Both the position numbers and the translations under genes were made by a program. From the IMG/VR virus record IMGVR_UViG_3300036851_000320, positions 1 through 22,278 of that record: a stretch of 22,278 bases of DNA; one strand, written 5' to 3'. This DNA comes from a virus. Shown here in pieces: positions 4,322 through 20,035 of this stretch. A model generated the notes under the pieces. That model was not told where the DNA came from and made no database searches. It saw only the letters and a list, made by a program, of their open reading frames with translations. Numbering within the stretch: position 1 is the stretch's first letter; each line of letters opens with the position of its first letter.

Positions 4322-6202
4322 GTGGCCCAGGTCTCGAAGATCGTCCAGAAGGCCGTCAAGGACTTCGACACCGACTGCGCCGACCACCACGACCAGTTCG
4401 CCCGCACCTGCGAACGGCGCTACCGCTCCTACCGGGGGGTGCTGGAGCGCCGGTCGGAGGCGGCGTCGTGGACGAACAAGCTGCACCCCGCCTACGCGTT
4501 GCAGATCGTCGAGACGATGATCAGCGCGCTTCTCGACCCCAGGCCACGGTGGAAGCCCTCGGCGAGGCCACGGATGGACGCTCCGGTCGACGCTGACGCG
4601 TTGCAGGCGGGCACCCGGGCGATGCGGACCCTGCTCAACTATCAGTTGGACGCGGCACGGTTCCCGCAGTCCCGCCGCCCCCACCGCTTGCAAGGCTTGG
4701 TATGCGGGCTGACGGTCGACAAGACGTTCTGGAACAGCATTGAGACACCGGTGAAAAGGCAGCGGGAACGCCTGCAGCCGGTGTTCGGCGAATACGGGTA
4801 CGCCGGGTCGATCCCCGTGCTCGAGGACACGGAGGAGGTCGAGGTCGTCGCCGACGACCCGGGCTCCGAGACCGTTGATGTCCGCCACTTCGTGTGGCCT
4901 CGGAACGCGGTCTCGTTGGAGCGGGCGTCCCGGGTGACGCACCGGATCTTCTACTCCTTCGATGAGCTGAAACGCCTTGAGGACCAGGGGTTGTTCGAGA
5001 ACGTCGACGAGTTGAAAGAGTCACGTGATCTCGCCACGGTTCACCGCAACCAGGACGACAGTCTGTACGGCACGGTCCCGGCTGAAGACGACATCGAAGT
5101 GTTGGAGCAGTGGCGGCGGGAACGCGACGGCACCGTTCGCGTCGTCTGTGTCGGCAACCGCAAGGTGCAGCTCAGGGACGAGTCGTCGCCGTACTGGCAT
5201 GGCCGGTTCCCGTTCGTCGTCTGCTCAGGGATGCCGTACCCGTTCCAGATCCCCGGCACCAGCGAGATCGAGCTGCTGGAGCAGCTACAGGAGATGCTGT
5301 GGACGTTGCAGAATTCCCAGCTCGATAACCTCCAGCTTTTGAACAATGCGATCGTGTTGATCGCCGACGACACGGATGATCCGGAGGCGTTCGAGTTCGC
5401 GCCGGGCGAGATGTGGATGGTTCCACGTCCGGTTGAGGAGACGGTGAAGTTGTGGACGCCGAACCCGATCACGGCTGAGCTTGCGGTCGGCACGATCGAA
5501 CGGTTGAAAGCGGACTTGCAAGCCCTGTCCGGTGGGATGCCGTGGCTGCAAGGAGATAACCGGCAGTCCGGCTCTGACACTGCTACTGAGGCGAGTATTT
5601 TGACGAATCTGGCGCAGCGCAGGGTGGCGGCGAAACGCGGGTTCTTCACCACCGCCGACGCCGAGGTGGGCGACCATTTCGTGAAGCTGAACCAGCAGTT
5701 CCTCCGCGAGAAGCGGTATGTGCAGATCGTCGGTGCTGACGCCGCCGAGGGGCTGGATCTGATCGACCCGGCTTCGTTCCGTGACCTCGATTTCAAGATG
5801 GATCTGGAGATGATGGACGAGTCGCTGATGCGGCAGGAGCGTCGCGCGGAGGCGACCGCCCGGTTGCAGGTGGCGCAGAACTTGGCGCCGGTGATGCTCG
5901 GCCTGTCGCAGGCGCCGAACTCGACGACGCGGGCGTTGAACATGGAGGCGTTCGTGGACGACTGGAACGAGTCCTATGACGTCGCCAACAAGGAGCGGTA
6001 TTACGCGGAGCAGCCGCCGCAGACGCAGCTTCAGCCGGGGCAGCCTGGGATGAACGGACAGGCACAGCCAGGCCAGGAGCCGGGGGCGACGGCGCCGCAG
6101 GCGGTCGACATGAACAGCCCTGCGAACGCGTTCTCGCAGTCGCCGGTGGCGGCGCTGCAACGGCTTGGTGCGATGGCGGGCGGGCCGGCGAATGCCGGTT
6201 AA
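4322..6202 (+). CDS. Portal protein
   Basis: A 626-residue protein expected to form the dodecameric ring at the capsid vertex through which DNA is packaged and ejected. The evidence is its place directly after the terminase and before scaffold and capsid, its size, and portal-like features: an N-terminal helical region with HPAYALQIVETMISALLD (55-72), a central beta-rich wing, the motif MPYPFQIPGTSEIELLEQLQ (304-323), a long helix (324-345), and the stem/crown segment SDTATEASILTNLAQRR (418-434). Residues 565-595 form a Gln/Pro/Gly-rich flexible tail. It starts at GTG 4322 directly behind the previous TAG. Codons shift from C-ending at the 5' end to G-ending towards the 3' end. Confidence 0.88.
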   Translation: MAQVSKIVQKAVKDFDTDCADHHDQFARTCERRYRSYRGVLERRSEAASWTNKLHPAYALQIVETMISALLDPRPRWKPSARPRMDAPVDADALQAGTRAMRTLLNYQLDAARFPQSRRPHRLQGLVCGLTVDKTFWNSIETPVKRQRERLQPVFGEYGYAGSIPVLEDTEEVEVVADDPGSETVDVRHFVWPRNAVSLERASRVTHRIFYSFDELKRLEDQGLFENVDELKESRDLATVHRNQDDSLYGTVPAEDDIEVLEQWRRERDGTVRVVCVGNRKVQLRDESSPYWHGRFPFVVCSGMPYPFQIPGTSEIELLEQLQEMLWTLQNSQLDNLQLLNNAIVLIADDTDDPEAFEFAPGEMWMVPRPVEETVKLWTPNPITAELAVGTIERLKADLQALSGGMPWLQGDNRQSGSDTATEASILTNLAQRRVAAKRGFFTTADAEVGDHFVKLNQQFLREKRYVQIVGADAAEGLDLIDPASFRDLDFKMDLEMMDESLMRQERRAEATARLQVAQNLAPVMLGLSQAPNSTTRALNMEAFVDDWNESYDVANKERYYAEQPPQTQLQPGQPGMNGQAQPGQEPGATAPQAVDMNSPANAFSQSPVAALQRLGAMAGGPANAG

Positions 6203-6491: not shown

Positions 6492-7447
6492 CCGACCTGA
6501 TCGACGAACAGCAGCCCGACGTCGAGGAGGCAACCGAGCCGGAGCAACTGCCGGTCGGCTTCGAGGAGTCGCTGCAGCAGCGGTTCGGCCAGCCCGCCGA
6601 CGAAGAGGAGCCTGCGCCCGAGGAAGAACCCGAGGGCGAGGAGCCGGAAGGGCCACCGCCCGCTGCCGCCGAGGCAGAGGCGACAGAGGAGCGGCCCGAC
6701 TGGCTCCCCGACAACTTCAAGAACGTCAAGGAGTTCCTCCGCTCGCAAGAGGAGCTACAGCAACTCCTGGATCGGCAAGGGCAAGAGCTCGGCGAGTTGC
6801 GACCGCTCAAGGAGCAGATGGAGCGGTTGGAGCAGCTCAGCCAGCCGCGGTACGACCAAGACGAGCTGGAAGTCTGGTTCGACGAGAACCCCACCCAGAT
6901 CCCCTACATCGCCGAAGAAGCCCGGCAGAAACAGGACGGCGCCCTCTACGAGCAGGCGATGGAAGCCTGGCACGCCCACAACCCACGGCAGGCAGCCGCC
7001 TACGAACGCCGCCTCGAGCTCACCTACATGCAGCAGCAGTTCGACGAGCGGCTGAACCAGGTCGCCGCCCCCGTCCAGGAGCAGGAGGGCGTCCGCGAGT
7101 TCGCCCGCGTCCTCGCCGAGGTCGAGGCCGAGCACCCCGACATCCAGAACTTCGGCGACGCCATCCTCGAAGCAGCGCAGACAACCCCCGAAGTCGTCAG
7201 CATCCTCCAGCGAGGCACCTACGACTCGAAGAAACGGGTCGTGGAAAGCCTGTACTGGATGGCCCGCGGCCGGCAGGCGGACACCCTCAGAGAGGCCGCC
7301 GAGACCGTCGCCCGCGAACAGCAGGACAAGACCCGCCGGCAGAAAGCCAAAGCCGGCGGCGCCACCGCTTCCACGAGCCCGGCGGCCGTGGACAAAAGCG
7401 CGATCGACCGTTTCAAACAGTCGATCCTCGACGCGCCGACCATCTAG
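6488..7447 (+). CDS. Putative capsid scaffolding protein
   Basis: A 319-residue acidic, mostly helical protein directly upstream of the major capsid gene, the usual scaffold position. Residues 1-66 are Glu/Pro-rich and disordered (DEEEPAPEEEPEGEEPEGPP). Residues 70-125 give a coiled coil (FLRSQEELQQLLDRQGQEL). The middle is helical with Gln and Tyr. The C-terminus is basic (KTRRQKAKAGG) followed by a short final helix (SAIDRFKQSILD), matching the known design of scaffolds whose C-terminal basic helix docks on the capsid protein. No protease motif (e.g. Ser-His catalytic pair) is evident, so it is not obviously a fused maturation protease. It starts in a GTGA overlap with AGGAG 11 bases upstream. 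Confidence 0.78.
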   Translation: MTDLIDEQQPDVEEATEPEQLPVGFEESLQQRFGQPADEEEPAPEEEPEGEEPEGPPPAAAEAEATEERPDWLPDNFKNVKEFLRSQEELQQLLDRQGQELGELRPLKEQMERLEQLSQPRYDQDELEVWFDENPTQIPYIAEEARQKQDGALYEQAMEAWHAHNPRQAAAYERRLELTYMQQQFDERLNQVAAPVQEQEGVREFARVLAEVEAEHPDIQNFGDAILEAAQTTPEVVSILQRGTYDSKKRVVESLYWMARGRQADTLREAAETVAREQQDKTRRQKAKAGGATASTSPAAVDKSAIDRFKQSILDAPTI

Positions 7448-7554: not shown

Positions 7555-8715
7555 ATGCCAGTCACCATCAACGCCGACCTCGTCGACGACTCAGACATCC
7601 TCGCAAACGAACGCGTCATCGACATGGACAACGAGATCTCCATGCTCGAGCCGGAATTCACCCAGTTCACGACGATTCTGAACCGGGTCAGCTCGAAGCC
7701 GGCGACCTCGTCGAAGGTCGAATGGCTCGAAGACCAGCTGTTCCCAAGGTTGTCGGCGCTCTCCGCGTCGATCACCGCCGCCTCGGCAACGATGCCTGTC
7801 ACGACGGGTGAGGGGCCGTACTTCCGGCTCGGCGACGTCGTCCGCATCCCCGTCTCCGGTGAAGCCGTCGCAGTGTCGGCCGCGCCGGCAACGGACGTGG
7901 TCGGGATCACCCGGTCGATCGGGTCCGTCGCAGCCGCCACCGCCGCCTCACTGGCGGAGCTCGTGATCATCGGCAACGCAGCCGCGCAGGGCGCCAGCCT
8001 CGGCGTCCGCAAGGTGACGGAACGCGTTGCCGCCTACAACTACACACAGATCTTCCGGCATCCGTACGGGTTCACCCGGACGCTGACGCAGTCGAAGCTG
8101 TACGGCGGCTCGGAGCCGATGAAGGAACGGAAGAAAAAGGCGATCGAGCACAAGCGCGCGCTCGAATCGGCGAACTTCTTCGGCCCTCGTGACCTCGACA
8201 CCGGCGGCACGGAGCCGAAGGGGTATATGGGCGGCCTGATCGAGTACATCTCGACGCTGATCAAGGACCCGTCCGGGGCGATGGACAAGGCGGAGTTCGA
8301 GACGTTCATGACCGCCTGGCTGCACCGGGCGAAGACGCCGCTACTGTTCGTCAGCCCCACCGTGGCGTCGATCATCAGCGGGTACGCCCGCGACAACTGG
8401 GTGCGGTCGAAGCAGCCCGATACCACGTGGGGGAACGTCATCGACGCCTACGTGTCCGGCGCGTTCGGGTTCGAGGTCCCGGTCGTCGTGAAGCGGGAGT
8501 GGCACGAGTTCGCCACGACCTCGTCGCAGTACGGGTCGATCGCGTTCGGCGTCGACATGGCGCACGTTCAGGCCAGGCCGATGCAAACGACCCAGCTGCT
8601 GCTGAACCGGCAGGGGAACTCCGAGGACCAGGTCGTCGAGGAGTACCTGACCGAGACCACGTTGCAGGTGGAGCAGGAGAAGCACCATCTGTACATCGAG
8701 AACGCGACCTCGTAA
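7555..8715 (+). CDS. Major capsid protein, SU10-like (HK97 fold)
   Basis: A 386-residue protein that should form the icosahedral shell. It matches the SU10/DUF5309 type of major capsid protein as I know it: an N-terminal arm with a KVEWLEDQL-like segment (about 59-67), a long central region, YNYTQIFRHPYGFTRTLTQS (about 161-180), a helix with KERKKKAIEHKRALESANFFG, the 'FVSPTVASIISGYARDN' region, and a beta-rich end before VVEEYLTETTLQVEQEKHH. No signal or membrane segment. The ATG has GGAGA six bases upstream and is set apart from the scaffold by a structured leader. A terminator candidate follows, fitting high separate expression. Full-length compared with its family; no delta-domain protease cleavage site can be assigned by eye. 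Confidence 0.88.
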   Translation: MPVTINADLVDDSDILANERVIDMDNEISMLEPEFTQFTTILNRVSSKPATSSKVEWLEDQLFPRLSALSASITAASATMPVTTGEGPYFRLGDVVRIPVSGEAVAVSAAPATDVVGITRSIGSVAAATAASLAELVIIGNAAAQGASLGVRKVTERVAAYNYTQIFRHPYGFTRTLTQSKLYGGSEPMKERKKKAIEHKRALESANFFGPRDLDTGGTEPKGYMGGLIEYISTLIKDPSGAMDKAEFETFMTAWLHRAKTPLLFVSPTVASIISGYARDNWVRSKQPDTTWGNVIDAYVSGAFGFEVPVVVKREWHEFATTSSQYGSIAFGVDMAHVQARPMQTTQLLLNRQGNSEDQVVEEYLTETTLQVEQEKHHLYIENATS

Positions 8716-8885: not shown

Positions 8886-9446
8886 CCTCGTTTCATCGCC
8901 AAGGCCCGCGAGTTCAGCGTCACCTGTTGGCGCACCGTCGACCGGGAGACATCGTTCCAGACCGGACTAGACGTCCAGGTCGGATTCATCGCCGACTTCC
9001 GCCACGACGGCAGCCTCTCCCCGTGGGAGAAAGAGGCTGCACTGAAGACGTTCAACTTCGGGGCTGTCGGCCACGACGAGGACGTGACGCACCGGCTGTC
9101 GGTGTTCGACACCGACCATGAGGCGATGGTACGGAAGTGGACGCCGGAGTTCAAGCAGCGGGTCGAGGACGCGCTGCGCCAGGGGAGGAATCTCGGCCGC
9201 AGCTACCTCGAGGTGGATCAGCCCAGGAGGCCGGCGCCGTGGCCCGCGTATGACAAGCTAGTGGCGCAGGGCCGCCGGACTTCGGAGATGGTGGCGGAGC
9301 GGATCGCCGCGACGGTGACCGAGAACGGCTACGACGCCGGCGAGGTGCTCTCGTATGAGCGGGAGAACCATGACCGGCCCGAAGTGATCGCCGCGCTCGA
9401 GGCGCTTGGGGTGGCGGAGCCGGAAGAGGAACTCGTCAGCGCATGA
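8874..9446 (+). CDS. Hypothetical protein downstream of capsid
   Basis: A 190-residue soluble protein, mixed alpha/beta at first (FSVTCWRTVDRETSF, LDVQVGFIADFRHDGSL) and then mostly helical with acidic character, ending in ALGVAEPEEELVSA. The start is uncertain: GTG 8874 touches the SD, while ATT 8883 has better spacing. No catalytic motif, zinc site, signal peptide or membrane segment is visible. The stop overlaps the next ATG (ATGA, 9443-9446). Its position behind the capsid gene would suit a decoration or head-completion protein, but I do not recognise it and the adaptor-type gene lies elsewhere (20313). Confidence 0.7.
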   Translation: MIPIPRFIAKAREFSVTCWRTVDRETSFQTGLDVQVGFIADFRHDGSLSPWEKEAALKTFNFGAVGHDEDVTHRLSVFDTDHEAMVRKWTPEFKQRVEDALRQGRNLGRSYLEVDQPRRPAPWPAYDKLVAQGRRTSEMVAERIAATVTENGYDAGEVLSYERENHDRPEVIAALEALGVAEPEEELVSA

Positions 9447-10024
9447 GTCCTGTCACGATCATACGGGGTTCGGACGAGGATCTTCCGAGTTCGCCCATTG
9501 AGACAGTCGGCTTTGCGGCGGCAATCAGAGGCCGGGAGAAGGAATTTCCGTATCTCGCGCGGGCCGTGAAGAACATCGAGCCCGCTGACCGTCCGATGAT
9601 CTCATGGGCGGACGGGCGCGGCAAGAACTTCTGCCAGATCAACCGGAATCCGTTCGGGGTCACGCATGCGGGACTCGTGACCCGTTTGTACAGCGGGCGC
9701 GATACGTGGGAAGACGCGCGTGCAGCCGCGCTCACCGAGCACTTGCAAAGTGTTGAGCAGACCATCGAACACGGTGTGCCCGAGCGCCGGATCGAGTTGT
9801 ACTTGGAGCTCGACGAAGACGGTGAGTGGTACGTGGCAGAGCGCGTCCGCCAGTTCGCTGGCGGCTTCCGGCACTACCTCAAGCGTGATCTACGACGTGG
9901 AGACACGATCCGACTGCGACCTCTGCAGGATCTGACGTTTCTCGATAACCGACAGGAACCGGACATGGACGTGCGGGAGGCGGAATGGCTGTCGGAGTTC
10001 TCGCTCGAGGTCACACCACACTGA
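9443..10024 (+). CDS. Hypothetical protein
   Basis: A 193-residue protein from an ATGA overlap. It contains DRPMISWADGRGKNFCQINR around residues 49-68, a helical stretch with many Ala/Glu (DARAAALTEHLQSVEQTIEH), and a C-terminal half of beta strands with Trp and Asp/Glu (LYLELDEDGEWYVAERVRQF). The end is RLRPLQDLTFLDN followed by an acidic tail. Composition is soluble and cytoplasmic. I recognise no family. It is followed by a strong SD for the next gene, so it may end a translation unit. Confidence 0.7.
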   Translation: MSPVTIIRGSDEDLPSSPIETVGFAAAIRGREKEFPYLARAVKNIEPADRPMISWADGRGKNFCQINRNPFGVTHAGLVTRLYSGRDTWEDARAAALTEHLQSVEQTIEHGVPERRIELYLELDEDGEWYVAERVRQFAGGFRHYLKRDLRRGDTIRLRPLQDLTFLDNRQEPDMDVREAEWLSEFSLEVTPH

Positions 10025-10040
10025 TCCAGGAGGAAAAGAG

Positions 10041-10235
10041 ATGCCTGTGACAGAACGAGATGACCGGCCGGGTCGGTTCAAGCGGAAGGGGTTTCCGCCG
10101 CCGGAGCGGGAGATCACCGAGGAGGAGGCTGCGCGGCTGGAGGTGAAGCAGAAGGCGATCGCGTCCGGGAAGTTCGACGTCGATCCTGGTGACGATGATC
10201 TGCCAGGCCGGTGGGCGCGTGCGCAGCCGAAGTAG
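10041..10235 (+). CDS. Small charged hypothetical protein
   Basis: A 64-residue protein with one of the best ribosome sites in the window (AGGAGGA at 10028-10034, seven bases before the ATG). It is almost all charged or Pro residues: GRFKRKGFPPPEREITEEEA, then a helical Glu/Lys segment, then DVDPGDDDLPGRWARAQPK. It is likely disordered. The TAG stop is directly followed by the GTG of a methyltransferase. No family recognised; it resembles the short charged linker proteins often seen near phage structural genes. Confidence 0.65.
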   Translation: MPVTERDDRPGRFKRKGFPPPEREITEEEAARLEVKQKAIASGKFDVDPGDDDLPGRWARAQPK

Positions 10236-10757
10236 GTGATTTTCGCGCAGGAGATCGGCAGCGCTGTCCACCTCGGCGAGCTTGAACGGATGGCCGCCGA
10301 AGCTGAGGGGAAAGTGTGTTTGGAGGTCGGGTCGTTCTTCGGCCGTTCGAGCATCGCGATAGCAAGCGTGGCCGAGGTGCTGCACTGCATTGACTGGCAC
10401 CGCGGCGAGTCTGCGAGCGACAAGGACACGGGACTGACGGACTCGCTGCCCGAATGGTGGGCGAACATCCGCCGATACGGGTTCGCCGACAAGACGGTGA
10501 TGCACGTCGGCACCACTGCGCAGGTGTGCCCGTTCATGGCGTCGCAACGGTTCGCGTTCTGCTTCATCGACGCCGACCACACCTATGAGGGTGTGAAAGA
10601 CGACATCGTGAACATGCTGCCGCTAATGCGACCTGACGCGACGCTCCTCTTCCACGATTACACCTGGACGGAGCTAGGCGTCCAGCAGGCAGTGGATGAG
10701 TTCTTTCCCGCCGTGGAGGTCGTCGACACGTCTGCGCTAGTCCGATTGGAGAGCTGA
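10236..10757 (+). CDS. SAM-dependent methyltransferase (Methyltransf_24-like)
   Basis: A 173-residue class I methyltransferase that should transfer a methyl group from S-adenosylmethionine. Motif I is EVGSFFGRSS (30-39). The acidic residue after strand 2 lies in CIDWH (51-55). The strand 4 region is FCFIDADHTYEGVKDDI (108-124). The HDY at 140-142 is typical of the Methyltransf_24 group found in sugar-modification and phage clusters. The length is close to the minimal fold with no target-recognition domain, so a small molecule or glycan substrate is likelier than DNA. The GTG start abuts the preceding stop. Nearby glycosyltransferases suggest that it methylates a sugar, as an inference from context. 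Confidence 0.82.
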   Translation: MIFAQEIGSAVHLGELERMAAEAEGKVCLEVGSFFGRSSIAIASVAEVLHCIDWHRGESASDKDTGLTDSLPEWWANIRRYGFADKTVMHVGTTAQVCPFMASQRFAFCFIDADHTYEGVKDDIVNMLPLMRPDATLLFHDYTWTELGVQQAVDEFFPAVEVVDTSALVRLES

Positions 10758-10760
10758 GAG

Positions 10761-10889
10761 ATGCCGGGGAAGAAGTACAGATCGTTGAAGAAGCCGCACG
10801 TCTATGAGGCGCTGCGCAGCGAGGGCATGTCGAAGGAGCGTGCGGCGAAGATCTCGAACGCGCAGGCGCGGAAGAAGCGCAAACGTTAA
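10761..10889 (+). CDS. 42-residue basic conserved-type protein
   Basis: A short gene from ATG 10761 (GAGAG just upstream) to TAA 10887-10889. The protein starts MPGKKYRSLKKPHVYEALRS, continues EGMSKERAAKISNAQ and ends in a run of Lys/Arg. I recognise the pattern 'LKKPxVYEALRxxGMSKERAAxISN' as a very common tiny protein of bacteria and phages with no agreed function. The basic tail suggests nucleic-acid or polyanion binding. It lies four bases after the methyltransferase and four before the glycosyltransferase, so it belongs to the same transcript. Confidence 0.75.
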   Translation: MPGKKYRSLKKPHVYEALRSEGMSKERAAKISNAQARKKRKR

Positions 10890-10892
10890 CCG

Positions 10893-12467
10893 GTGCCCGC
10901 TGTCACGGTGGTCATCCCGTTCCTCAACGGGGGGAACGAGGCATGGCTGCGCGAGGCGATCGGCTCGCTACCGATCGGCACCCCCTACCTCGTCGCCCAC
11001 AACGACGGCGAGCTCGCCGAGGCGCTGAACCAGGCGCTCCGCCAAGTAGAGACGGAGTTCGTGCTCCGGCTGGACGCCGACAACCGTCTACACCGTGACG
11101 CCATCCCGTTCCTGCTCGACCTCGCCTGGGACACAGACGTCACCTACCCATCACTGCTACTGACCGATGAGGAGCTGCGGCCGGTCGAGTTCCTGAAGGC
11201 ACCCGCGTTTTGCCCGAACCGGCTATTGGAGAAGAACTACATCGACGGCGGCGCCCTCTTCCGCCCAGAGAAAGCACTGGCGGTTGGCGGCTACCGTGAC
11301 CTGCCGATCCTGGAGGACTGGGACCTGTGGGTGAGGATGCACCGTGCCGGGGCGACGTTCAAAGCGGTGCCGGAGGCGATCCTCTATTACCGCCAGCATC
11401 CGGGCTCGCGGAATAAGAGCGTCGATCCGGTCGGGACGCACGAACGGTTGCGCGCCCAGATCGTCGGCAGCACACCCGACCTGAAAGCGAGCTTCTACTA
11501 CCAGCAGACGTATGCGACGACGTACTGGCGGTGCCTGCTGCCCGCCCGCCATTTGCCGGGGCAGGCGGTTGACCATCCGCCGTTCAAGCCAGCCCGCGAG
11601 CACGACGATGGGACACTCGACTTGGCGTTCCCGGAGCATCGGGGGGCGGCGGTGTGGCAGTTCCCAGGGGACGCCGTCCGTGCCGTGTTGATGTCAGAGC
11701 AGCAGGAGCAAGGCACTCGCGTACTCGTCGAGACTGACGACAACTATTTTGACGCGTCGCCGCTCGGCAACCCCGGCTGGACGAAGACGATCCAGAAGGG
11801 CCGCGGCCACTCGCTCGAGGCGCACCGCCGGATCATCCCGTGGGTGGACGGGGTGATCGTGACCACCGCGCAGCTCGCGAACCGGTACCGGAAGCACAAC
11901 CCGAACGTGTACGTGTGCCCGAACCAGTTGGATCCGGCGGACTGGCCTGAGCCGGACGCCTCGAACGGGAGGTTCCGGGTCGGCTGGTTCGCGAGCCCGT
12001 CCCATGCCGGCGACGCGAAGCTCGTTCACCGAGCGTTGGAGTGGGCGTCACGGCAGGACGATGTTGAGGTCTACACGATGGGTTTCGACCCGGGCTGGTC
12101 GTTCCGGCGCTGGCATTTCCCGTGGTCGAACGACCTCGGCGTCTACCGGAAGCTGCTCGGCACGCTGGACGTCGGGTTGGCGCCAGTGGTGGAGACACCG
12201 TGGTCGGTGTGTCGATCCGATTTGAAAGCGCTCGAGCTCAGCGCCGCCCAGGCAGCCCCGGTTCTCTCGGACGCGACCCCATACCGCACGTATGAGGGTC
12301 CGTGCTTGCGCGCCACGTCGGCGAAGGACTTCCTGCACCACGTCAAGCACCTCGTCACCCATCGCGACGAGGCCCGGCAGTTGGGCCGGGAGGCGAGGGG
12401 GTACGTGATGCGCGAAAGGACGATGCCACGGCATATCGGCGACTGGCAGGAGGCAGTCGGTGGCTAG
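10893..12467 (+). CDS. Two-domain glycosyltransferase (GT2-like plus GT4-like)
   Basis: A 524-residue protein joining two glycosyltransferase folds. Residues 1-175 are a GT-A/GT2 domain: VTVVIPFLNGG (4-14), a DxD-type DAD at 61-63 for metal and sugar nucleotide, and GGYRDLPILEDWDLWVRM (132-149) with the ED acceptor motif. Residues 250-524 are a GT-B/GT4-like region: CPNQLDPADW (342-351), FRVGWFASPSHAGD (361-374), and SDLKALELSAAQAAPVLSD (442-460), the donor-phosphate binding area. It could add two successive sugars, or one domain may be structural. The GTG start lies three bases after the previous stop and has only a weak SD. No membrane helices or signal peptide, so it acts in the cytoplasm. 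Confidence 0.85.
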   Translation: MPAVTVVIPFLNGGNEAWLREAIGSLPIGTPYLVAHNDGELAEALNQALRQVETEFVLRLDADNRLHRDAIPFLLDLAWDTDVTYPSLLLTDEELRPVEFLKAPAFCPNRLLEKNYIDGGALFRPEKALAVGGYRDLPILEDWDLWVRMHRAGATFKAVPEAILYYRQHPGSRNKSVDPVGTHERLRAQIVGSTPDLKASFYYQQTYATTYWRCLLPARHLPGQAVDHPPFKPAREHDDGTLDLAFPEHRGAAVWQFPGDAVRAVLMSEQQEQGTRVLVETDDNYFDASPLGNPGWTKTIQKGRGHSLEAHRRIIPWVDGVIVTTAQLANRYRKHNPNVYVCPNQLDPADWPEPDASNGRFRVGWFASPSHAGDAKLVHRALEWASRQDDVEVYTMGFDPGWSFRRWHFPWSNDLGVYRKLLGTLDVGLAPVVETPWSVCRSDLKALELSAAQAAPVLSDATPYRTYEGPCLRATSAKDFLHHVKHLVTHRDEARQLGREARGYVMRERTMPRHIGDWQEAVGG

Positions 12468-12774
12468 CGGCTTGCGCGTCCAGGTTGGCGCCGAGAAGGC
12501 GTTCGACCACGGTGCCGTCACCGTCGGCACCACTGCCGTTGCCCTGGCGAGTGCGTACACGCTGCTGAACCGGGGCGTCCAGATCAAGGCTGCCGCCGCG
12601 AACACAGGCCAGGTGTACGTCGGCAACTCCGATGTCACGAACGGCAGCGCGGACGCCACCGACGGGTTCGAGCTCTCTGCCCGCGACGGCCTGTTCGTGC
12701 CGGCGCAGGACTTGCAGGGCGTCTACGTGATCGGGTCGGCGGCCGGACAGAAAGTGTTCTGGCTGACGCTATGA
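12460..12774 (+). CDS. Small beta-rich virion-type protein
   Basis: A 104-residue protein from GTG 12460, preceded by AGGAGG at 12448-12453. It consists of short beta strands and Gly/Asn turns: an N-terminal VTVGTTAVALASAYTLLNRG segment, a central QVYVGNSDVTNGSADATDG and a closing LQGVYVIGSAAGQKVFWLTL. The 'VYVG..DVT..GF.L...D.LF.P...L..VYVIGSAAGQ' pattern is familiar from small phage structural proteins and fibre domains. It overlaps the glycosyltransferase stop and ends in an ATGA overlap with the repeat fibre gene, so it is probably a fibre-associated or decoration protein. The function is inferred. Confidence 0.7.
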   Translation: MASGLRVQVGAEKAFDHGAVTVGTTAVALASAYTLLNRGVQIKAAAANTGQVYVGNSDVTNGSADATDGFELSARDGLFVPAQDLQGVYVIGSAAGQKVFWLTL

Positions 12775-14768
12775 GCGGCGGCCTCTACAACGCAGGCGGA
12801 GGCGGGGGCGGAGCCGGTGGCGGCGTCAACCTGGCCGCCTCCAACACCACGTACACGTCCGGCACCGTCGTCATCTCGGGCAGCACGAACATCACCGTGC
12901 TGACAAACGGGCAGACGATCCTGCTGTCCGCGAACGACCCGGCCGCCGCCGCGGGCGTATCAGCGCTCCAGGCGTCGAACACCACGTACACGTCGGGAAA
13001 GGTGATCCTGACCGGCGTCGGCGGTGGCGTCACCGTCTCGAGCAACACCGGCCAGCGCATCGACATTTCGGTAGCCGCACCGGTCGCAGAGACCCAGGTC
13101 GCGATCAGCGGCGTGTCTGCGTCTGACGCGCTCTACACGTCAGGGACCGTGAGGATCACGGGGGTTGGTGGCGGGATCACGGTGTCGAGCAACACGGGGC
13201 AGCGGATCGACCTCTCCGTCGCAGCCCCGGTAGCGCAGACAGCCGAGACCGCCATCTCCGGGGTATCGGCGTCGGACACGCTGTACACGTCCGGCACCGT
13301 ACGGATCACCGGCGTCGGCGGGGGTATCACCGTCAGCTCGAACACTGGCCAGCGGATCGACCTGTCCGTGGCCGCCCCGGTCGCCCAGACCGCGCAGACG
13401 GGGATCTCGGGGATCGCGAACTCGCAGACCACCTACACCTCGGGCACCGTGAGTCTGTCGGAGCTTGGCGCGATCACTGTCCGCTCGACAACCGGCAACC
13501 AGTACCAATTCTCAGTTAACTCGCAGACCGTCCAGACGCAGAACCTCCACAACGTCACCCTGTCGGGGAACACCGCGGGGGCGCTGGCGCACATCTCGTC
13601 GGGCACGCTGACGCTGGCGGGCGGGAACAACATCACACTCTCGCAGGCCGGGAACGCCGTCACGATCAGCGGTGGCGCCGGGGGCGCCGAGACCCAGACG
13701 GCGATCTCGGGTATCCGCGCGTCGGACACGACCTATACGTCAGGCAGCGTGACGATCACCGGTGTCGGTGGCGGCGTGACGGTAAATTCGAACACGGGGC
13801 AGCGCGTCGATATCAGCGTCGCAGCGCCCGTCGCCCAGACTGGCACACAGTTCAGCGCGGGCCTTTCCAACATCGGCAACACGGCTGGCGATACCGGCAC
13901 CGTTGCAGGCCGGGTTGTCCTCGCCGGTGGTAACAACATCACCCTGTCCGGCAGCACGAACGGCGTATCGGAGACGATCACGATTTCGGGGGCCGCCGGT
14001 GGCGGGGCGGGTTTCACAGCCGGGATGTCGAACCTCGGCAACACAGCTGGTACGTCAGGTGTCGTAACGGGCCAGGTCGTACTCGTCGGCACCCACGACG
14101 TCACCCTCTCCCAGTCCGTAAACGGCGGGTCGGCGACCATCTCGATCATCCCCGGCCCGCAGATGAGCCGATTCCGGTATCCGCAAGATGTCACCCCGGT
14201 GACCGCCGGTGGCTTGCAGGGGAACTCCTCTCTGTACTTCGTCCCGATCTTCGTACCCGGCTATCTGACCGCGCACAACGTTGGCCAGCTCTACTCGATC
14301 AGCGGCGCCACCGGGTCGACGGCTGCGGCGTCCCACTGGTTCGGGGTTTACACCAAGAACGGCTCGACTCTGTCGACGGCGACGACACACTCACAGTCAT
14401 CGTCGTGGACGTCGGGCTCGATTGCGTCGAACGACTGGGGTGGCCTGATCGGCTACCGCTGGCGGATGATGAGCGGACAGACGTTCAACTTCACGCCCGG
14501 CGACTACTGGATCGGGATGATCAACCGGTCCACCAACGCAGGCTCGTGGTCGCTGCTGGGGCTTTCGCAGATCGCAAACGCCTGGTCCGGCCATGTCGGC
14601 TCCTTGTCGAACACCAGCCGGCTGATGGACGTCGGCCTCGGCTGCTACACCGCCCAAACCTCGGCGTTCCCGGCCACCGTCGCGTTCAGCCAGATCGGCA
14701 GCCTCGTCGGCAACAACCTCCGCATCCCAGCCTTCCTCATGCACCACAGCGATGTCAGTTCGGGATGA
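12771..14768 (+). CDS. Repeat-built tail fibre protein
   Basis: A 665-residue protein. Residues 8-19 are almost all Gly. Residues 23-357 hold copies of a roughly 50-residue repeat (YTSGTVRITGVGGGITVSSN type), with the marker Tyr at 28, 73, 122, 172, 222 and 322 and a degenerate copy around 272. Residues 361-457 hold a second repeat pair (SNIGNTAG / SNLGNTAG). Residues 465-665 form a Trp/Ser/Gly-rich globular end (MSRFRYPQDVTPV to HHSDVSSG), the likely receptor-binding tip. The repeats, rich in Thr, Ser and Val, suggest a trimeric beta shaft. No signal peptide and no chaperone domain. Neighbouring glycosyltransferases make the many Thr/Ser residues possible glycosylation targets, a hypothesis only. 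Confidence 0.8.
   Translation: MSGGLYNAGGGGGGAGGGVNLAASNTTYTSGTVVISGSTNITVLTNGQTILLSANDPAAAAGVSALQASNTTYTSGKVILTGVGGGVTVSSNTGQRIDISVAAPVAETQVAISGVSASDALYTSGTVRITGVGGGITVSSNTGQRIDLSVAAPVAQTAETAISGVSASDTLYTSGTVRITGVGGGITVSSNTGQRIDLSVAAPVAQTAQTGISGIANSQTTYTSGTVSLSELGAITVRSTTGNQYQFSVNSQTVQTQNLHNVTLSGNTAGALAHISSGTLTLAGGNNITLSQAGNAVTISGGAGGAETQTAISGIRASDTTYTSGSVTITGVGGGVTVNSNTGQRVDISVAAPVAQTGTQFSAGLSNIGNTAGDTGTVAGRVVLAGGNNITLSGSTNGVSETITISGAAGGGAGFTAGMSNLGNTAGTSGVVTGQVVLVGTHDVTLSQSVNGGSATISIIPGPQMSRFRYPQDVTPVTAGGLQGNSSLYFVPIFVPGYLTAHNVGQLYSISGATGSTAAASHWFGVYTKNGSTLSTATTHSQSSSWTSGSIASNDWGGLIGYRWRMMSGQTFNFTPGDYWIGMINRSTNAGSWSLLGLSQIANAWSGHVGSLSNTSRLMDVGLGCYTAQTSAFPATVAFSQIGSLVGNNLRIPAFLMHHSDVSSG
12837..13841 (+). 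repeat. Protein-level tandem repeats, about 150-bp unit
   Basis: Copies encode YTSG-(V/T)-x-ITGVGGG(V/I)TV-x-SNTGQR(I/V)D(I/L)SVAAPVA. The Tyr spacing is 45, 49, 50, 50 and 100 residues. Copies at 13131-13244 and 13281-13394 encode the same 38 residues, yet I count 24 codons changed synonymously. Confidence 0.85.
13851..14141 (+). repeat. Second repeat type in the fibre shaft
   Basis: Two related units start FSAGLSNIGNTAGDTG and FTAGMSNLGNTAGTSG, about 54 residues apart. Each leads into VVL-G-x-(N/D)-(I/V)TLS and ends in a T-I-(T)-I strand. Confidence 0.65.
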
Positions 14769-15484
14769 CCGAACCGCAGATCATCGTCGGCGGCGGCAAT
14801 GGCTACCACAACACCGACCCGCAGACAATCCAGCGGCTCACCAAAGGCCGCACCTACCAGGACCTCTCCACCATCTGCGTCGTCCCTACCCGCGGCATGA
14901 TCCCCGCCCGCGTCGTCGAGTCATGGATGGGCTTGATGAGCGCGATGAATCAGAAGTTCACGCGCGTGTTCGTCGCCGGCATGGAAGTCGGGGACGCCTA
15001 CAACGCAGCGATCGAACTGATCCTCAACCACCCCGAACTCTCCACCTGGAAGTACGTGCTCACATTGGAGGAGGACAACCTGCCACCTCCGGACGGCCTT
15101 TTGAAACTCTACGAATCGATAGAGGACTACGCGGCGGTCGGCGGGTTGTACTGGACGAAGGGCGAGGGCGGCCAGCCGATGATCTACGGCGACCCGCACG
15201 GCATCCTGAACTTCGTCCCGCAGATGCCGCGACCGGACACGGTGCAGGAGTGCAACGGCCTCGGGATGGGCTTCACGCTGTTCAGGATGGAGATGTTCCG
15301 CGACGAGAAGATCCCGCGTCCGTGGTTCAAGACGCTCCAGGAGTGGGACCCGAACGTGGGTGTCCGCTCCTACACGCAAGACCTCCACTTTTTCGAGCGG
15401 GCACGGCAGGCCGGCCACCGAGTCGCCTGCGACACGCGCGTCAAGGTAGGGCATCTGTCTGTCGAAGACGACTTCGTGTGGTGA
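14765..15484 (+). CDS. GT-A type glycosyltransferase
   Basis: A 239-residue protein. The start is the ATG in the ATGA overlap with the fibre stop; the frame is open further upstream, but that part is a shadow of the fibre gene. The fold is GT2-like: STICVVPTRGMIPARVVESW (35-54) opens the Rossmann-like sheet, LTLEEDNLPPP (99-109) supplies the acidic metal/donor motif, GGLYW follows, ECNGLGMGFTLFRMEMF (162-178) fits the acceptor region, and TQDLHFFERARQAGH (204-218) plus H230 fit the C-terminal catalytic and metal area. No membrane anchor. Placed between the fibre and a methyltransferase, it probably works with the 10893 enzyme on the same glycan. The target (virion protein, phage DNA or host envelope) cannot be read from sequence. 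Confidence 0.8.
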   Translation: MTEPQIIVGGGNGYHNTDPQTIQRLTKGRTYQDLSTICVVPTRGMIPARVVESWMGLMSAMNQKFTRVFVAGMEVGDAYNAAIELILNHPELSTWKYVLTLEEDNLPPPDGLLKLYESIEDYAAVGGLYWTKGEGGQPMIYGDPHGILNFVPQMPRPDTVQECNGLGMGFTLFRMEMFRDEKIPRPWFKTLQEWDPNVGVRSYTQDLHFFERARQAGHRVACDTRVKVGHLSVEDDFVW

Positions 15485-15496
15485 AAGGACGATCAG

Positions 15497-15757
15497 ATGG
15501 CAATCCGTGCGTTCGTACCAAGCGTCCCGGCTTTCACTGTCGCTGACGCCCCGGATGGCCGGTGGGAGTTCACTGCGCTTTTGGTCGACGACACCGCCGG
15601 ACAGATTCTGGGCCAGATCGCCGACGAGGTAGTCGTCCCGTGGGGGTCCCCGATCAGGACCCTAATCGCCGACCAGATCGTCGCTCGCGCCGACTCTGAC
15701 TACAGCAAGACGCTCCTGGTCACCGACATACTGATGCACGACTTGATGGCGCCGTGA
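15497..15757 (+). CDS. Small hypothetical protein
   Basis: An 86-residue protein with AAAGGA (15484-15489) seven bases before the ATG. It alternates beta strands and a central acidic segment (EFTALLVDDTAGQILGQIAD), then VVVPWGSPIRTLIADQIVAR, then a Leu-rich end (SKTLLVTDILMHDLM). No motif recognised. Its TGA overlaps the next GTG, so it is coupled to the methyltransferase. Confidence 0.7.
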   Translation: MAIRAFVPSVPAFTVADAPDGRWEFTALLVDDTAGQILGQIADEVVVPWGSPIRTLIADQIVARADSDYSKTLLVTDILMHDLMAP

Positions 15758-16344
15758 CAGCCATCGCGGCTAAGCCAGCCAAGCGGAAGCCTCGTGTCCC
15801 AAAGACACGGTCGTACCGGCTCGACCTCGGCTGTGGCCAGGCGAAACAGGAAGGATTCACCGGGGTCGACATCGCCGGTGACGCCGACGTCATCCACGAC
15901 CTGTTCTCGTTCCCGTGGCCGTTCCCCGACTCGAGCGTGGAGGAGATCCACGCGTCGCATTTCGTCGAGCACATCCCGCACTACCGGCCCGATTGGGACC
16001 GTGACGGCTGGTGGATGTTCTTCAACGAGTGCTACCGGATCTGCAAACCCGATGCGAAGCTGACGTTCGTTCACCCCTATGTGAAGTGTGACCGGGCGTT
16101 CTGGGATCCGACGCACACCCGCTACATCCACGAGACGACCTGGTACTACGGCGATCGGCAGTGGCGTGAGCAGCAACGGCTCGACCACTATCCGGCCGAC
16201 TGCGATTTTGAGGTGACGTTGATCCAGGGGACGGGTGTAGACCAGGACGTCGCGGCCCGCCATCACGAGTTCCAGGCGGTCGCTCGGCACCGATATTGGA
16301 ACGTGATCCCAGATCTGATCGTCGAGTTGAAGGCCCGCAAATAG
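15754..16344 (+). CDS. SAM-dependent methyltransferase (class I)
   Basis: A 196-residue protein. After a basic leader (KPAKRKPRVPKTRS) comes LDLGCGQ (23-29), the SAM-binding motif I, with D39 in GFTGVDI as the ribose-binding acidic residue. HASHFVEHIPHY (66-77) is the motif IV region common in Methyltransf_11-like enzymes. Later residues CYRICKPDAKLTFVHPY follow the usual 'L.PGG.l.i..P' strand. It is a different subfamily from the 10236 enzyme, so the cluster carries two non-homologous or distantly related methyltransferases. The start is GTG in an overlap with the previous stop. A sugar or small-molecule substrate is inferred from the neighbouring glycosyltransferases. Confidence 0.82.
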   Translation: MTAIAAKPAKRKPRVPKTRSYRLDLGCGQAKQEGFTGVDIAGDADVIHDLFSFPWPFPDSSVEEIHASHFVEHIPHYRPDWDRDGWWMFFNECYRICKPDAKLTFVHPYVKCDRAFWDPTHTRYIHETTWYYGDRQWREQQRLDHYPADCDFEVTLIQGTGVDQDVAARHHEFQAVARHRYWNVIPDLIVELKARK

Positions 16345-16353
16345 GAGGGAAGC

Positions 16354-16659
16354 ATGGCTACGTTGGAGAAGATCGACGAGTTGCGCGCCGACAACGCGCA
16401 GCTCGCGAAACGCGCATCGGACCTGAGCGCCGACCTGACCCGTGCCCGCCGCGAATTGAAGGGCGTGCAGACGGCGGAGGAGAAAGCCGCGCAGGCCGAG
16501 GAGCGCGCGGAGACAGCGGAGACGGAGAACAAGGCGCTGAAGGCTGAGCTCGCCCGCGCACGGGCGGAGGTCGACACGCTGCACAAGCAGATCGCCGCCG
16601 ACCGACATTTCGTCAACGCCGCGACCAAGCTGCGGGAAGGGTTCCGGGCGCTCGGATGA
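16354..16659 (+). CDS. Coiled-coil protein
   Basis: A 101-residue protein with a strong AGGAGG (16343-16348). Residues 3-85 are one long heptad-patterned helix (LEKIDELRADNAQLAKRASD, ETENKALKAELARARAEVDT), ending in a basic segment (ATKLREGFRALG). Such proteins usually form dimers or trimers and may act as a fibre shaft, chaperone or spacer. It is tied by an ATGA overlap to the zinc-ribbon gene, suggesting a paired role. No family assigned. Confidence 0.75.
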   Translation: MATLEKIDELRADNAQLAKRASDLSADLTRARRELKGVQTAEEKAAQAEERAETAETENKALKAELARARAEVDTLHKQIAADRHFVNAATKLREGFRALG

Positions 16660-17075
16660 CCGAACGGTGGCGGCGCCCGTTGAAGCCGTTGGCGATCGAG
16701 GAGGATGCCGGCGCGGTCAGCTATGACGGGGTGAAGCTGATGCGCGGTCTCGACATCACCTACACCCCCGATGACTTCCAGCGGCTCCGGGAAGGGTACG
16801 CCTGCCTGAACTGCCAGGAGCCGTTCGAGCAGCCGTTCCCCGAACGGTGTGCGGTGTGCGGGTACGCCGTCCGCGAGTTGCAGACCGCGGATATCGCCCG
16901 CGAGTTCCGGGGGCACAAGCACTTGGGGTCGACGGTGAAGATCGCGGACGAGTTGGAGCGGTTGGAGGAGTGGGCGCAACGGCAGGAGCACGTCCCGGAG
17001 CATCACGTTCTCGTCCCGGACGGTGGCGCGTTCGCGCAGGGCGCCGGCTTGTGGACGCCTGAGAGCCTGAACTGA
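16656..17075 (+). CDS. Zinc-ribbon protein
   Basis: A 139-residue protein with CLNC at 50-53 and CAVC at 65-68, a complete Cys4 zinc-ribbon spacing (CxxC-11-CxxC). The N-terminal part is beta-like with Arg/Lys and acidic patches (KPLAIEEDAGAVSYDGVKLM), and the C-terminal part is helical (KIADELERLEEWAQRQEH) then Gly-rich. Zinc ribbons in phages serve in DNA/RNA contact or virion assembly. Here it sits between glycan and tail genes, so a structural or regulatory task cannot be separated. It overlaps the coiled-coil gene by ATGA and leaves 36 bases before the tailspike. Confidence 0.72.
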   Translation: MTERWRRPLKPLAIEEDAGAVSYDGVKLMRGLDITYTPDDFQRLREGYACLNCQEPFEQPFPERCAVCGYAVRELQTADIAREFRGHKHLGSTVKIADELERLEEWAQRQEHVPEHHVLVPDGGAFAQGAGLWTPESLN

Positions 17076-17111
17076 TGCCAGTCCTGTCGGAGGTCTAACC
17101 GGAAGGGGCTC

Positions 17112-19277
17112 ATGTCGTTGCCGCTCACTCCCCTCACGCTGGGGTCGCTCACCCTGGACCCGGTCACACCGCTGCCGGAAGACTGGATCGACGTGTCTTC
17201 CTACGCTGTCGGAGACGGCATCGCCAATGACACGACTGCGTTTGAAGACGCGTTGGCTGCTGACAACGCGACTGCGCTTCTGTATTCGCCGCCAGGTAAG
17301 ACGTATCTCATAACCGGCAACCTGACGATTGCGACACAGCGGACGATCGACTTCAGCGGGTCGACGATCAAGTTCGCGACGCCGGGGAAGGTCTATGTTA
17401 CCGCCGCCGGAGCGGGCACGTATATTCGCAATCTCGTCGTCGACGCCAACCTTCAGGTTGGGGGAGGCGGGGTCTCGACGGACGCTGTTGGCGTCACGCG
17501 CTGCTTTAACGTCGAGACGCTGAATTCAAAGGGCGGCTCCGGGTTCGCCTGCACTGGAGCGGGCGTCATCTTGGAGCTGAACGGGCGCTGCCACTCCCAC
17601 CATCACCAGCGCAACGCTGGCTCTCACGGCAACGGCGCCTACGCGCTCAACGGTGCCATTCTTCGCACGGGGCCGGAGTTCCTTGCTGAATATTGCCAGG
17701 GCCACGGGGTCTTGATCGACACGGATGCGGGCGAGGGATGCGTCATAAGGGGGAGGGCGTACCGTTGCGGCGATCCGGCGGGGGCCGGCTCAAACGGTGC
17801 CTACTTGCGTTCACCGAACGGGATAGTCGACTTCGTCACGGAGGAGTGCGATAGCTTCGGCGTCGAGATCACCGGGGATAAGTGGCGCGGCTTCGCCGAG
17901 GCGTTACGAACGGGTGTCGGGTTCACAGCCCCCACCTACACCGTGGCTCCTGATGACGCCTGCGCTGGCATACGGATCTTCGCGGCCGATAACTGCAAGG
18001 TATACGCTCGCGATCTTCGTTCAGGGGGGTACGGCGTTGCCATTGTCGGCGGCAGTAATCATAACGACATCACCGTCGACGTCGATTATACTGGTGGTTC
18101 GGACCGTGACCCCGGTATCAATCTGTCGGGTGGTTCTTCCTTCAACGTCATCCGGGGAGAAATCCGTGGCGCTACTGTCGGGCTGAGCATGGCCGAAGCG
18201 ACAGGGCTGAACAACGACAACGACATCGTGCTTGCGATGTTCGATTGTGACTTTAGCGCCCTTCGTATGGACTACGGCAAGAATAATGCCATCACCATCT
18301 TTTCAAGAAACAATCGGGACTTTGATGATGGTGTCAACCTCGGGCTCGTTAACCTTCTTGGTGGCGCTAACGTAACTGGCAACCGCATCGTTCTCTATGA
18401 CCACCGCGAGACTACTGGTGGTGCTGCCGCCTCTACCTGCCCACGCTACCTTGTTCGCTGCCTCGCCGGTACTGCCGACAACGAGATCATCGTCCACCGG
18501 GCACGCGACTGCCGCATTCTCTCCTACGACCTCGGCACGAACAACAAGATCACCGTCGCGAAGGCGCTTAAGCAGACGGCAATCGCGACGTTCGACTCGG
18601 GGGAGGCCTGGTCGGCGGGAACGAACAACGCGACCGCCGGGCAGTGGGTAGAAGGGGATGGAGGCAAGCGATTCCTGGGTGGAGTGGGCAGCTACACCTC
18701 CTATACCCGCACGCTAGGGGCGGCCATAGACCTCAGTGCGATGGGGAACGAGGAGTGGTTCCGGGTCTGGTGCTTCTACGAGAACGCAGCCGATCACTTG
18801 ACTACTGGTAGTGGCCCGGTGCTGTTTCGACTCCGCACCGACTCCTCTAATTATTTCGACACCCCGTTTGGCAATCCGCTCGTGCCGGGGGACGGCGGTT
18901 TCTACATCTACCTCCGCAAGGTGGACTTCTCAGCCGTTGGCACGCCCAACTGGAACAACATCACTTCGATCGCCGTTCTAGTCCATTCTGCTGGCGCCGG
19001 TACGTTCGCGGTCACGATGGATGACTTCTGCCGCGTCTACTCCCAGCGGTTTGAGGGGCCGAGCGACCGGGCCGGTGGAAGCGTGAGCGTCGCCGACGGG
19101 GGGAAGATCGCTCATGGCCTGCTTGTTGCTCCAACTCGCGTGACGGTCGTACCTTCTGTCTCGGGTGAGTTCGCATCCGTAACCGCAATTGACGCATCCA
19201 GCTTCACCGTGGCTCTAAAGAAGCATGACAACACGGCGGGTACAACACAATCGGTCTACTGGACGGCGGAGCGGTAA
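17112..19277 (+). CDS. Tailspike with beta-helix domain
   Basis: A 721-residue protein preceded by GGAAGG (17101-17106). After a short leader, DVSSYAVGDGIANDTTAF (27-44) is the N-terminal signature of Pectate_lyase_3-type right-handed beta-helices in phage tailspikes, and NNDI/NVIRG/GNRI turns follow to about residue 490. Residues about 493-650 look like a jelly-roll carbohydrate-binding domain (WFRVWCFYENAADH). The last 65 residues (VADGGKIAHGLLVAPTRVTV to VYWTAER) match a small C-terminal fibre domain seen in tail proteins. It likely binds and may cleave host polysaccharide; catalytic Asp/Glu residues cannot be fixed by eye. A His cluster (HSHHHQ, 161-166) is unusual. Third positions carry more T than neighbours, suggesting acquisition from another genome. 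Confidence 0.83.
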   Translation: MSLPLTPLTLGSLTLDPVTPLPEDWIDVSSYAVGDGIANDTTAFEDALAADNATALLYSPPGKTYLITGNLTIATQRTIDFSGSTIKFATPGKVYVTAAGAGTYIRNLVVDANLQVGGGGVSTDAVGVTRCFNVETLNSKGGSGFACTGAGVILELNGRCHSHHHQRNAGSHGNGAYALNGAILRTGPEFLAEYCQGHGVLIDTDAGEGCVIRGRAYRCGDPAGAGSNGAYLRSPNGIVDFVTEECDSFGVEITGDKWRGFAEALRTGVGFTAPTYTVAPDDACAGIRIFAADNCKVYARDLRSGGYGVAIVGGSNHNDITVDVDYTGGSDRDPGINLSGGSSFNVIRGEIRGATVGLSMAEATGLNNDNDIVLAMFDCDFSALRMDYGKNNAITIFSRNNRDFDDGVNLGLVNLLGGANVTGNRIVLYDHRETTGGAAASTCPRYLVRCLAGTADNEIIVHRARDCRILSYDLGTNNKITVAKALKQTAIATFDSGEAWSAGTNNATAGQWVEGDGGKRFLGGVGSYTSYTRTLGAAIDLSAMGNEEWFRVWCFYENAADHLTTGSGPVLFRLRTDSSNYFDTPFGNPLVPGDGGFYIYLRKVDFSAVGTPNWNNITSIAVLVHSAGAGTFAVTMDDFCRVYSQRFEGPSDRAGGSVSVADGGKIAHGLLVAPTRVTVVPSVSGEFASVTAIDASSFTVALKKHDNTAGTTQSVYWTAER

Positions 19278-20035
19278 TGGCTTATGTCGATGAGGTTCTC
19301 GCGGATAGCCCTGCCGGATACTGGCGGATGGGCGAGGCGCTCGATAGCAGCCCCGCGAATGACGAGACGGCGAACAACAACGACGGCGTCTACACGAACG
19401 TTACGGGCACTACACCGGGGCAGGCGGGAATCTCCGGTGACGGCAACACGGCGGTCCGGTTCACGAAGGCGTCGCTCGGCTACGTCGCGGTGCCGGACGC
19501 CGCCTCTCTTGATCTGGGAGGAAACTTGCTCACGCTCGAAGCGTGGGTGAAGCTTGCCGCCGTTGGGGCCGCGCAGCTTAAGTCGATTTGCAGCAAGGGC
19601 GCGAACGGTTATCAGATGCGCGTCAACACGGCCGACAAGATCGAGCTGTTGAAGGATCGCGTCGGCGTTCTCGCCACATCGGTGTTGGCGATCACGGATA
19701 CCAACTGGCATCACATCGTGGGAACGAAGAATGGTGCCACACGAGCGATCTACATTGATGGGGCCGAATCGACCTCTCTGGGTGTCGACGCGGTCGTCGC
19801 GGCCACCGACAATTCGCTCTACATCGCCGTCGCGAACGGCGCGGGCGCAGGCGTGACCGTGCCCGAGGCGACAACCTACATGGACGGGACGCTTGACGAG
19901 ATCGCGGTGTACCCGACCGCGCTGAGCGCCGCGCGGGTGCTCGCCCATTTCCAGGCCGCCGTGGTCCCATCCGAAAGTGGTGCCAACGCAGGAGCTTTCG
20001 TCCCCGCCATCCTCCAACTCCTCGGAAAGAGGTGA
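19277..20035 (+). CDS. LamG-type lectin-like virion protein
   Basis: A 252-residue protein starting in a TAATG overlap with the tailspike stop. It shows the concanavalin-like LamG pattern: 'SPAGYWRMGE' (11-20), a FTK-x-YVAVPDAASLDLG strand pair, LLTLEAWVKL, then DTNWHHIVGTKNGATRAIYI and GTLDEIAVYPTALSAARVLA near the end. This jelly roll binds sugars and is frequent in phage adhesion proteins. No signal peptide, so it is a virion rather than a secreted protein. Its tail after about residue 230 is Ala/Pro-rich. It follows the tailspike, so it probably gives a second glycan-binding arm; the exact sugar cannot be predicted. Confidence 0.8.
   Translation: MAYVDEVLADSPAGYWRMGEALDSSPANDETANNNDGVYTNVTGTTPGQAGISGDGNTAVRFTKASLGYVAVPDAASLDLGGNLLTLEAWVKLAAVGAAQLKSICSKGANGYQMRVNTADKIELLKDRVGVLATSVLAITDTNWHHIVGTKNGATRAIYIDGAESTSLGVDAVVAATDNSLYIAVANGAGAGVTVPEATTYMDGTLDEIAVYPTALSAARVLAHFQAAVVPSESGANAGAFVPAILQLLGKR

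Follow-up and report, generated by a model that had tools for sequence, protein, structure and literature searches.

The virus record IMGVR_UViG_3300036851_000320 of IMG/VR, whose 22,278 bases were analysed in their entirety and are called the window below, carries a run of genes encoding a repeat-bearing fibre, two glycosyltransferases and two methyltransferases. Three of these genes, those for the fibre, a glycosyltransferase of GT-A fold (GT-A) and a class I S-adenosylmethionine (SAM) methyltransferase (MT11), constitute a portable module. An earlier sequence-only reading had proposed that all four enzymes form one fibre-linked cassette. That reading was correct in part and did not go far enough: GT-A and MT11, the pair linked to the fibre, belong to a portable module of wide occurrence, and the second glycosyltransferase, a two-domain protein, is a separate feature of the phage backbone. 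The explanation we favour, with a probability of about 0.58, is that fibre, GT-A and MT11 form a co-expressed fibre-modification module in which GT-A glycosylates the fibre and MT11 methylates the sugar.

The association of GT-A and MT11 with fibres, which the sequence-only reading had suggested looking for in other genomes, holds far beyond the window. A first scan of IMG/VR with GT-A returned 39 loci, nearly all with an MT11 homologue on the 3' side and often with fibre homologues on the 5' side; a later profile scan gave 239 confirmed matches, of which 80 were kept. MT11 lies downstream of GT-A on the same strand in 107 of 115 loci, mostly overlapping it or within 40 bases. When loci were dereplicated at 85% identity, leaving 129, MT11 was found just downstream of GT-A in 105 of the 107 with room for it (at least 3 kb downstream), the exceptions being L007, where open reading frame (ORF) calling obscures the MT11 match, and L003, a remote archaeal-virus relative. 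The fibres are recognized by a C-terminal domain (CTD) of about 210 residues, almost always at the extreme C-terminus, which a hidden Markov model (HMM) detects in 86 of the 115 GT-A loci. Among dereplicated loci with room, 64 of 105 have it no more than 6 kb upstream of GT-A, and several loci with no detected CTD look like diverged forms.

Scans that started from the other two genes led to the same grouping. GT-A was present in 66 of 73 loci found with MT11, a figure to be read with the mild bias that the seed alignment was drawn from GT-A loci, and a scan seeded with the window fibre found both GT-A and MT11 at every one of the seven loci that could be tested, four of them contigs new to the analysis. 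The full alignments of MT11 (A3) and the CTD (A2, A7) were too diverse for a DNA-pattern scan, which was therefore run with a subset (A5) and with single proteins; seeded with one CTD, it yielded one locus. Evolutionary distances of GT-A and MT11 are correlated (Mantel r 0.47, with none of 1000 permutations as high). In two loci, genes for nucleoside diphosphate (NDP)-sugar dehydratases or epimerases lie between GT-A and MT11 (L013, 10734-12106, which also has a cytidylyltransferase-like gene, and L084, 10748-11761), which points to real sugar chemistry. Homologues in envelope or DNA-modification clusters free of fibres, the situation named beforehand as telling against a fibre link, were not what was found.

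All of the genes listed by the sequence-only reading (two methyltransferases of different types, the two-domain glycosyltransferase, GT-A and the fibre) are indeed present and tightly packed. The DUF7218 protein and the small ORFs at 12460-12774 and 15497-15757 are additions to that reading. The gene content as a whole reads as that of a short-tailed phage, and the principal features are as follows.

2222-4033: terminase
4322-6202: portal
7555-8715: major head protein
10236-10757, + strand: MT24, a class I methyltransferase of Methyltransf_24 type (Pfam PF13578, 6.7e-18), linkage to the module not conserved
10761-10889, + strand: DUF7218 protein of 42 residues (Pfam PF23855, 5.6e-16)
10893-12467, + strand: two-domain GT2+GT4 glycosyltransferase of the podovirus backbone (Pfam, PHROG, and homologues in L043 and L044, which lack the fibre module)
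12460-16659, + strand: segment with no counterpart in L043 or L044 (fibre, GT-A, MT11 and small ORFs; tblastn gene order)
12460-12774, + strand: small ORF of 104 residues that opens the inserted segment, no family match
12771-14768, + strand: fibre, with a YTSG-repeat shaft and a C-terminal jelly-roll domain (residues ~456-665), the proposed acceptor
14136-14765, + strand: fibre CTD, common to other GT-A loci (CTD HMM, fold)
14765-15484, + strand: GT-A glycosyltransferase with A197-like fold (PHROG, model)
15497-15757, + strand: small ORF of 86 residues between GT-A and MT11, no family match
15754-16344, + strand: MT11, class I SAM methyltransferase, the partner of GT-A
from 20313: tail and structural proteins

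Genes of this region nearly abut or overlap by a few bases, the fibre stop and the GT-A start sharing the ATGA at 14765-14768. A search of 9400-17200 found no promoter-like sites, and terminator-like sites there occur at chance level. None of the proteins of the region has a hydrophobic span above the cut-off, so that it includes no flippase, polytopic glycosyltransferase or membrane-spanning partner. No phage record matched the window by megablast, and relatives of its terminase are distant.

The division into two units emerges from the backbone relatives L043 and L044, which were found through the two-domain glycosyltransferase. At 26-50% identity they match the window in terminase, portal, head protein and further genes, but neither showed the fibre, GT-A or MT11. 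In both, judged by tblastn order, a homologue of the window gene at 16656-17075 directly abuts the two-domain glycosyltransferase, and because of this gene order window positions 12460-16659 read as an insertion in the backbone of a podovirus, where a glycosyltransferase was present beforehand. Conversely, in none of the 115 GT-A loci was a homologue of the two-domain enzyme seen, nor were the terminase, portal and head protein of the window found with other GT-A loci, though the position of the terminase may fall outside the 10 kb flank. The enzyme itself, of 524 residues, has an N-terminal Glycos_transf_2 domain and a C-terminal GT4-type half that matches the glycosyltransferase family phrog_7162 (E 7.5e-20), and it belongs to the podovirus backbone, separate from the fibre module. 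Glycan genes also vary at this site of the backbone, given that in L044 (7751-9615) a sugar-type C-methyltransferase (Methyltransf_13/14) and a GT2-like gene stand beside the two-domain glycosyltransferase. MT24 is without a conserved link either to the fibre module or to the two-domain glycosyltransferase unit; near other GT-A loci it has only weak matches, in L108 and L109. Of the proposed four-enzyme cassette, then, the part concerning GT-A and MT11 survives, these being fibre-linked widely, and the part concerning the other two enzymes does not.

GT-A is a protein of 239 residues that matches phrog_1574 and phrog_12406. Its model (pLDDT, the predicted local distance difference test, 88.7; two rows from the phage collection were left out of the modelling) has a confident GT-A fold, and its best match by a margin is A197 of Sulfolobus turreted icosahedral virus (STIV; PDB 2c0n), with a Foldseek E of 9.9e-13, a Z of 20.9 and a root-mean-square deviation of 2.1 over 168 residues. 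The same protein is its sole PDB profile match (E 1.2e-3). Next come LH3 (Z 17.2), Mnn9, Mimivirus R699 and COLGALT1 (Z 14.8), and glycosyltransferases for polysaccharide and teichoic acid, TarP among them, are close in fold as well. Across 37 members of the family E102-x-D104, an ExD variant of the DxD-type metal site, and Q205-D206-L207, with the downstream acidic residue, are invariant. GT-A is a predicted glycosyltransferase, which would take its sugar from a nucleotide sugar. Two copies of GT-A, duplicated locally, occur in L108 (9935-11373) and L109.

MT11 (196 residues) has weak matches to Methyltransf_11 (E 5e-3) and phrog_6636 (E 2e-5), but its family is clearer: 16 of 26 members match Methyltransf_11 (PF08241) below 1e-3, and there is an LDLGCG glycine-rich SAM motif. 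Pairing with GT-A and the NDP-sugar genes described above suggest a sugar as its methyl acceptor. Additional copies of MT11 are present on the opposite strand in L093 (14803-17219), a local duplication.

The Thr/Ser-rich repeat shaft noted from the letters is confirmed. The fibre, of 665 residues, has six YTSG units (at residues 28, 73, 122, 172, 222 and 322), and Ser and Thr make up 27.5% of the shaft, compared with roughly 10% of the terminase and portal proteins. A YTSG-like motif failed as a marker of fibres across loci (10 of 115); the element in common is the CTD rather than the repeat. In its model (pLDDT 77) the fibre domain is similar to portions of the central fibres at the tail tip of mycobacteriophages Douge and Bxb1 (Z ~12.5) and also to a chain of the cyanophage A4 capsid (Z 11.6). 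Many CTDs of relatives end in [NS]xT[FYVL]-COOH (NGTF, SGTY, NATY, NLTV); because the window fibre ends in LMHHSDVSSG, the tail as an acceptor-like site is only an idea. L096 (5972-9925) has three CTD fibres in succession, another local duplication.

The favoured scheme would run as follows. The fibre would be made in the infected cell, after which soluble GT-A would transfer a sugar to it from a nucleotide sugar, which may be supplied by the host or, in some phages, in part by the phage. The site of attachment would most likely be the Ser/Thr/Asn-rich shaft or the jelly-roll tip, and MT11 would then methylate the fibre-bound sugar. A glycan would thus be built and methyl-capped on the fibre rather than on the capsid. 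The two-domain glycosyltransferase, perhaps with MT24, would be a separate glycan-making unit resident in the backbone. Catalytic activity, the nature of the sugar, its acceptor, the order of the steps and the benefit, which may be adhesion, shielding or stability, are all put forward provisionally. Several observations weigh against this scheme. Neither a donor nor an acceptor has been established for any GT-A family member. Between fibre CTD and GT-A the correlation of distances is weak (r 0.09, with 17 of 1000 permutations as high), and there is therefore no sign of tight co-evolution of enzyme and acceptor. The CTD goes undetected in about a third of the dereplicated GT-A loci, seven MT11 loci are without GT-A, and the 1.2 kb that remain beside the CTD fibre of L195 hold no GT-A. 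(L197, a second candidate for a fibre without enzymes, was rejected, since the contig end cuts inside the fibre.)

It is an established theme in seroconverting phages that enzymes encoded beside fibres act on the receptor, and the window enzymes might likewise modify a host surface glycan and so either mask the receptor against superinfecting phages or prevent newly released virions from adhering to debris. The closeness of the GT-A fold to enzymes such as TarP is in keeping with this; the module, however, lacks a flippase or membrane-spanning partner, and the same trio is found in the Patescibacteria loci read, with an exported-looking fibre, so that we regard this explanation as unlikely. 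GT-A and MT11 might instead act on some other virion protein of the head, its decoration or the tail, lying beside the fibre merely as part of an easily exchanged late operon. In STIV the glycosylated protein is that of the coat (PMC10551542), in mycobacteriophages capsid and tail-tube subunits carry the known virion glycans (cited in PMC12619734), and the near absence of co-variation between fibre CTD and GT-A fits as well. Yet head proteins are wholly different among phages with GT-A and MT11, while the fibre CTD recurs, and the Patescibacteria loci read keep the fibre beside the enzymes with no head genes; we consider this alternative doubtful.

The sequence-only proposal that all four enzymes work on one glycan, in which case the two-domain glycosyltransferase and MT24 would extend or trim the GT-A product, draws on the presence of the four in one gene run and on the similar placement of several glycosyltransferases between head genes and fibre module in the metagenomic podovirus ctKR88. 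It has become improbable now that relatives lacking the fibre module are seen to retain the two-domain enzyme, and 115 loci to retain GT-A and MT11 without it. That phage DNA receives the sugar or methyl groups is more improbable by far. MT24 does match PHROG families labelled DNA methyltransferase, and phage glycosyltransferases that modify DNA are known (as cited in PMC12619734), but the Pfam match of MT24 is to Methyltransf_24, neither MT24 nor MT11 contains the DNA-methylase motifs looked for (DPPY-like or PC), and the constant neighbour is a fibre, not DNA metabolism genes.

Neighbours of GT-A include an HK97-type portal (L010), a siphovirus major tail protein (L056), a baseplate-wedge-like protein (L114) and a podovirus-like head protein (L002), from which it follows that the module crosses podo-, sipho- and myovirus-like phage types. 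A search of 84,980 bacterial and archaeal species gave module matches in 25 records, 23 of them Patescibacteria metagenome-assembled genomes. One record is labelled Acidobacteria; L114 and L115, of which one has that label and the other a Patescibacteria label, give the same locus length, GC and matches, and one is probably mis-binned, or else both carry the same phage. Two copies are from Saccharibacteria, on contigs of 1.16 and 0.65 Mb and in the company of genes for TatC, serine hydroxymethyltransferase, pilin-like proteins and an ABC-type ATPase reading like UvrA, and in several Parcubacteria-type loci the fibre starts with a signal-peptide-like stretch. Fibre CTD, GT-A and MT11 stand among cellular-type genes in the Patescibacteria contigs of L112 (6160-11351), L113 (6973-11323), L118 (8344-12221) and L100 (6930-12826). 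A similar membrane-anchored protein lies between GT-A and MT11 in the Patescibacteria copies L095, L098, L100, L103, L104, L107, L110 and L118, with a Pfam Beta-lactamase2 match in L118.

These Patescibacteria copies may be cellular surface fibres or domesticated pieces of prophage. In a tree of 130 GT-A sequences made by a quick maximum-likelihood method, genome copies are interspersed with viral ones, with at least six label changes on well-supported branches; the window falls in an all-viral set of 12. Only 2 of 380 sampled Patescibacteria genomes have GT-A (the known G001 and one weak match), and it is therefore accessory there. A broader and more tentative idea, to which we give somewhat less than even odds, is that podo-, sipho- and myovirus-like phages and Patescibacteria surface fibres share one methylated-sugar cassette for fibre maturation, consisting of jelly-roll tip, A197-like GT-A and methyltransferase, that has been exchanged several times.

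Two side observations concern the rest of the window. Downstream of the module, 17112-20035 encodes a pectate-lyase-like spike and a LamG lectin-like protein, so this phage has several candidate receptor-binding proteins. ARAGORN calls a tRNA-Pro at 7130-7219 on the minus strand, within a scaffold-like gene, which is probably a chance match.

A compact and recurrent gene set thus points to fibres as a target of glycosylation, with an added step of methylation. A life attached to other cells is proposed for many Patescibacteria, and through the module in their genomes phage fibres would be linked to the surface of such bacteria; phages and bacteria may share an uncharacterised decoration of surface fibres. 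The family may easily have been overlooked, given 239 GT-A matches in IMG/VR but almost none among 50,697 phage records, where tblastn found only copies from ctKR88 and one Methanobacteriales virus, and no mycobacteriophage relative.

Glycosylation of phage virions has been documented mainly in mycobacteriophages. There, phage-encoded glycosyltransferases act on virion proteins, modifying the C-termini of capsid and tail-tube subunits (Freeman 2023, cited in PMC12619734), whereas the GT-A/MT11 pair of the window, a putative modification system, is fibre-linked. STIV A197 is, like GT-A, a viral protein of minimal GT-A fold; it is essential to STIV, whose coat protein is glycosylated, and is thought to be responsible, the acceptor being unproven (PMC10551542). 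That said, the two share only ~20% identity, STIV is an archaeal icosahedral virus for which no paired methyltransferase or fibre has been described, and the donor of A197 is likewise unproven. The collagen glycosyltransferases LH3 and COLGALT1, among the next-best folds, also have a fibrous protein as substrate, but they are human multi-domain enzymes acting on hydroxylysine, with ~14% identity to GT-A and no methylation partner. Seroconversion (gtr) clusters comprise a membrane flippase and a polytopic glycosyltransferase, and the window region has neither. No description of a fibre/GT-A/MT11 module was found in the literature searched, from which subscription papers are largely missing. Also among the closest known systems is ctKR88 (MW202524), from Manatee Spring, in which the relevant genes are annotated only as 'has synthase' and 'methyltransferase'. 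Its upstream enzymes differ from those of the window and an extra MT11-like gene precedes GT-A, but the order is the same: head genes, several glycosyltransferases, a CTD fibre, a methyltransferase, GT-A (44% identity) and MT11.
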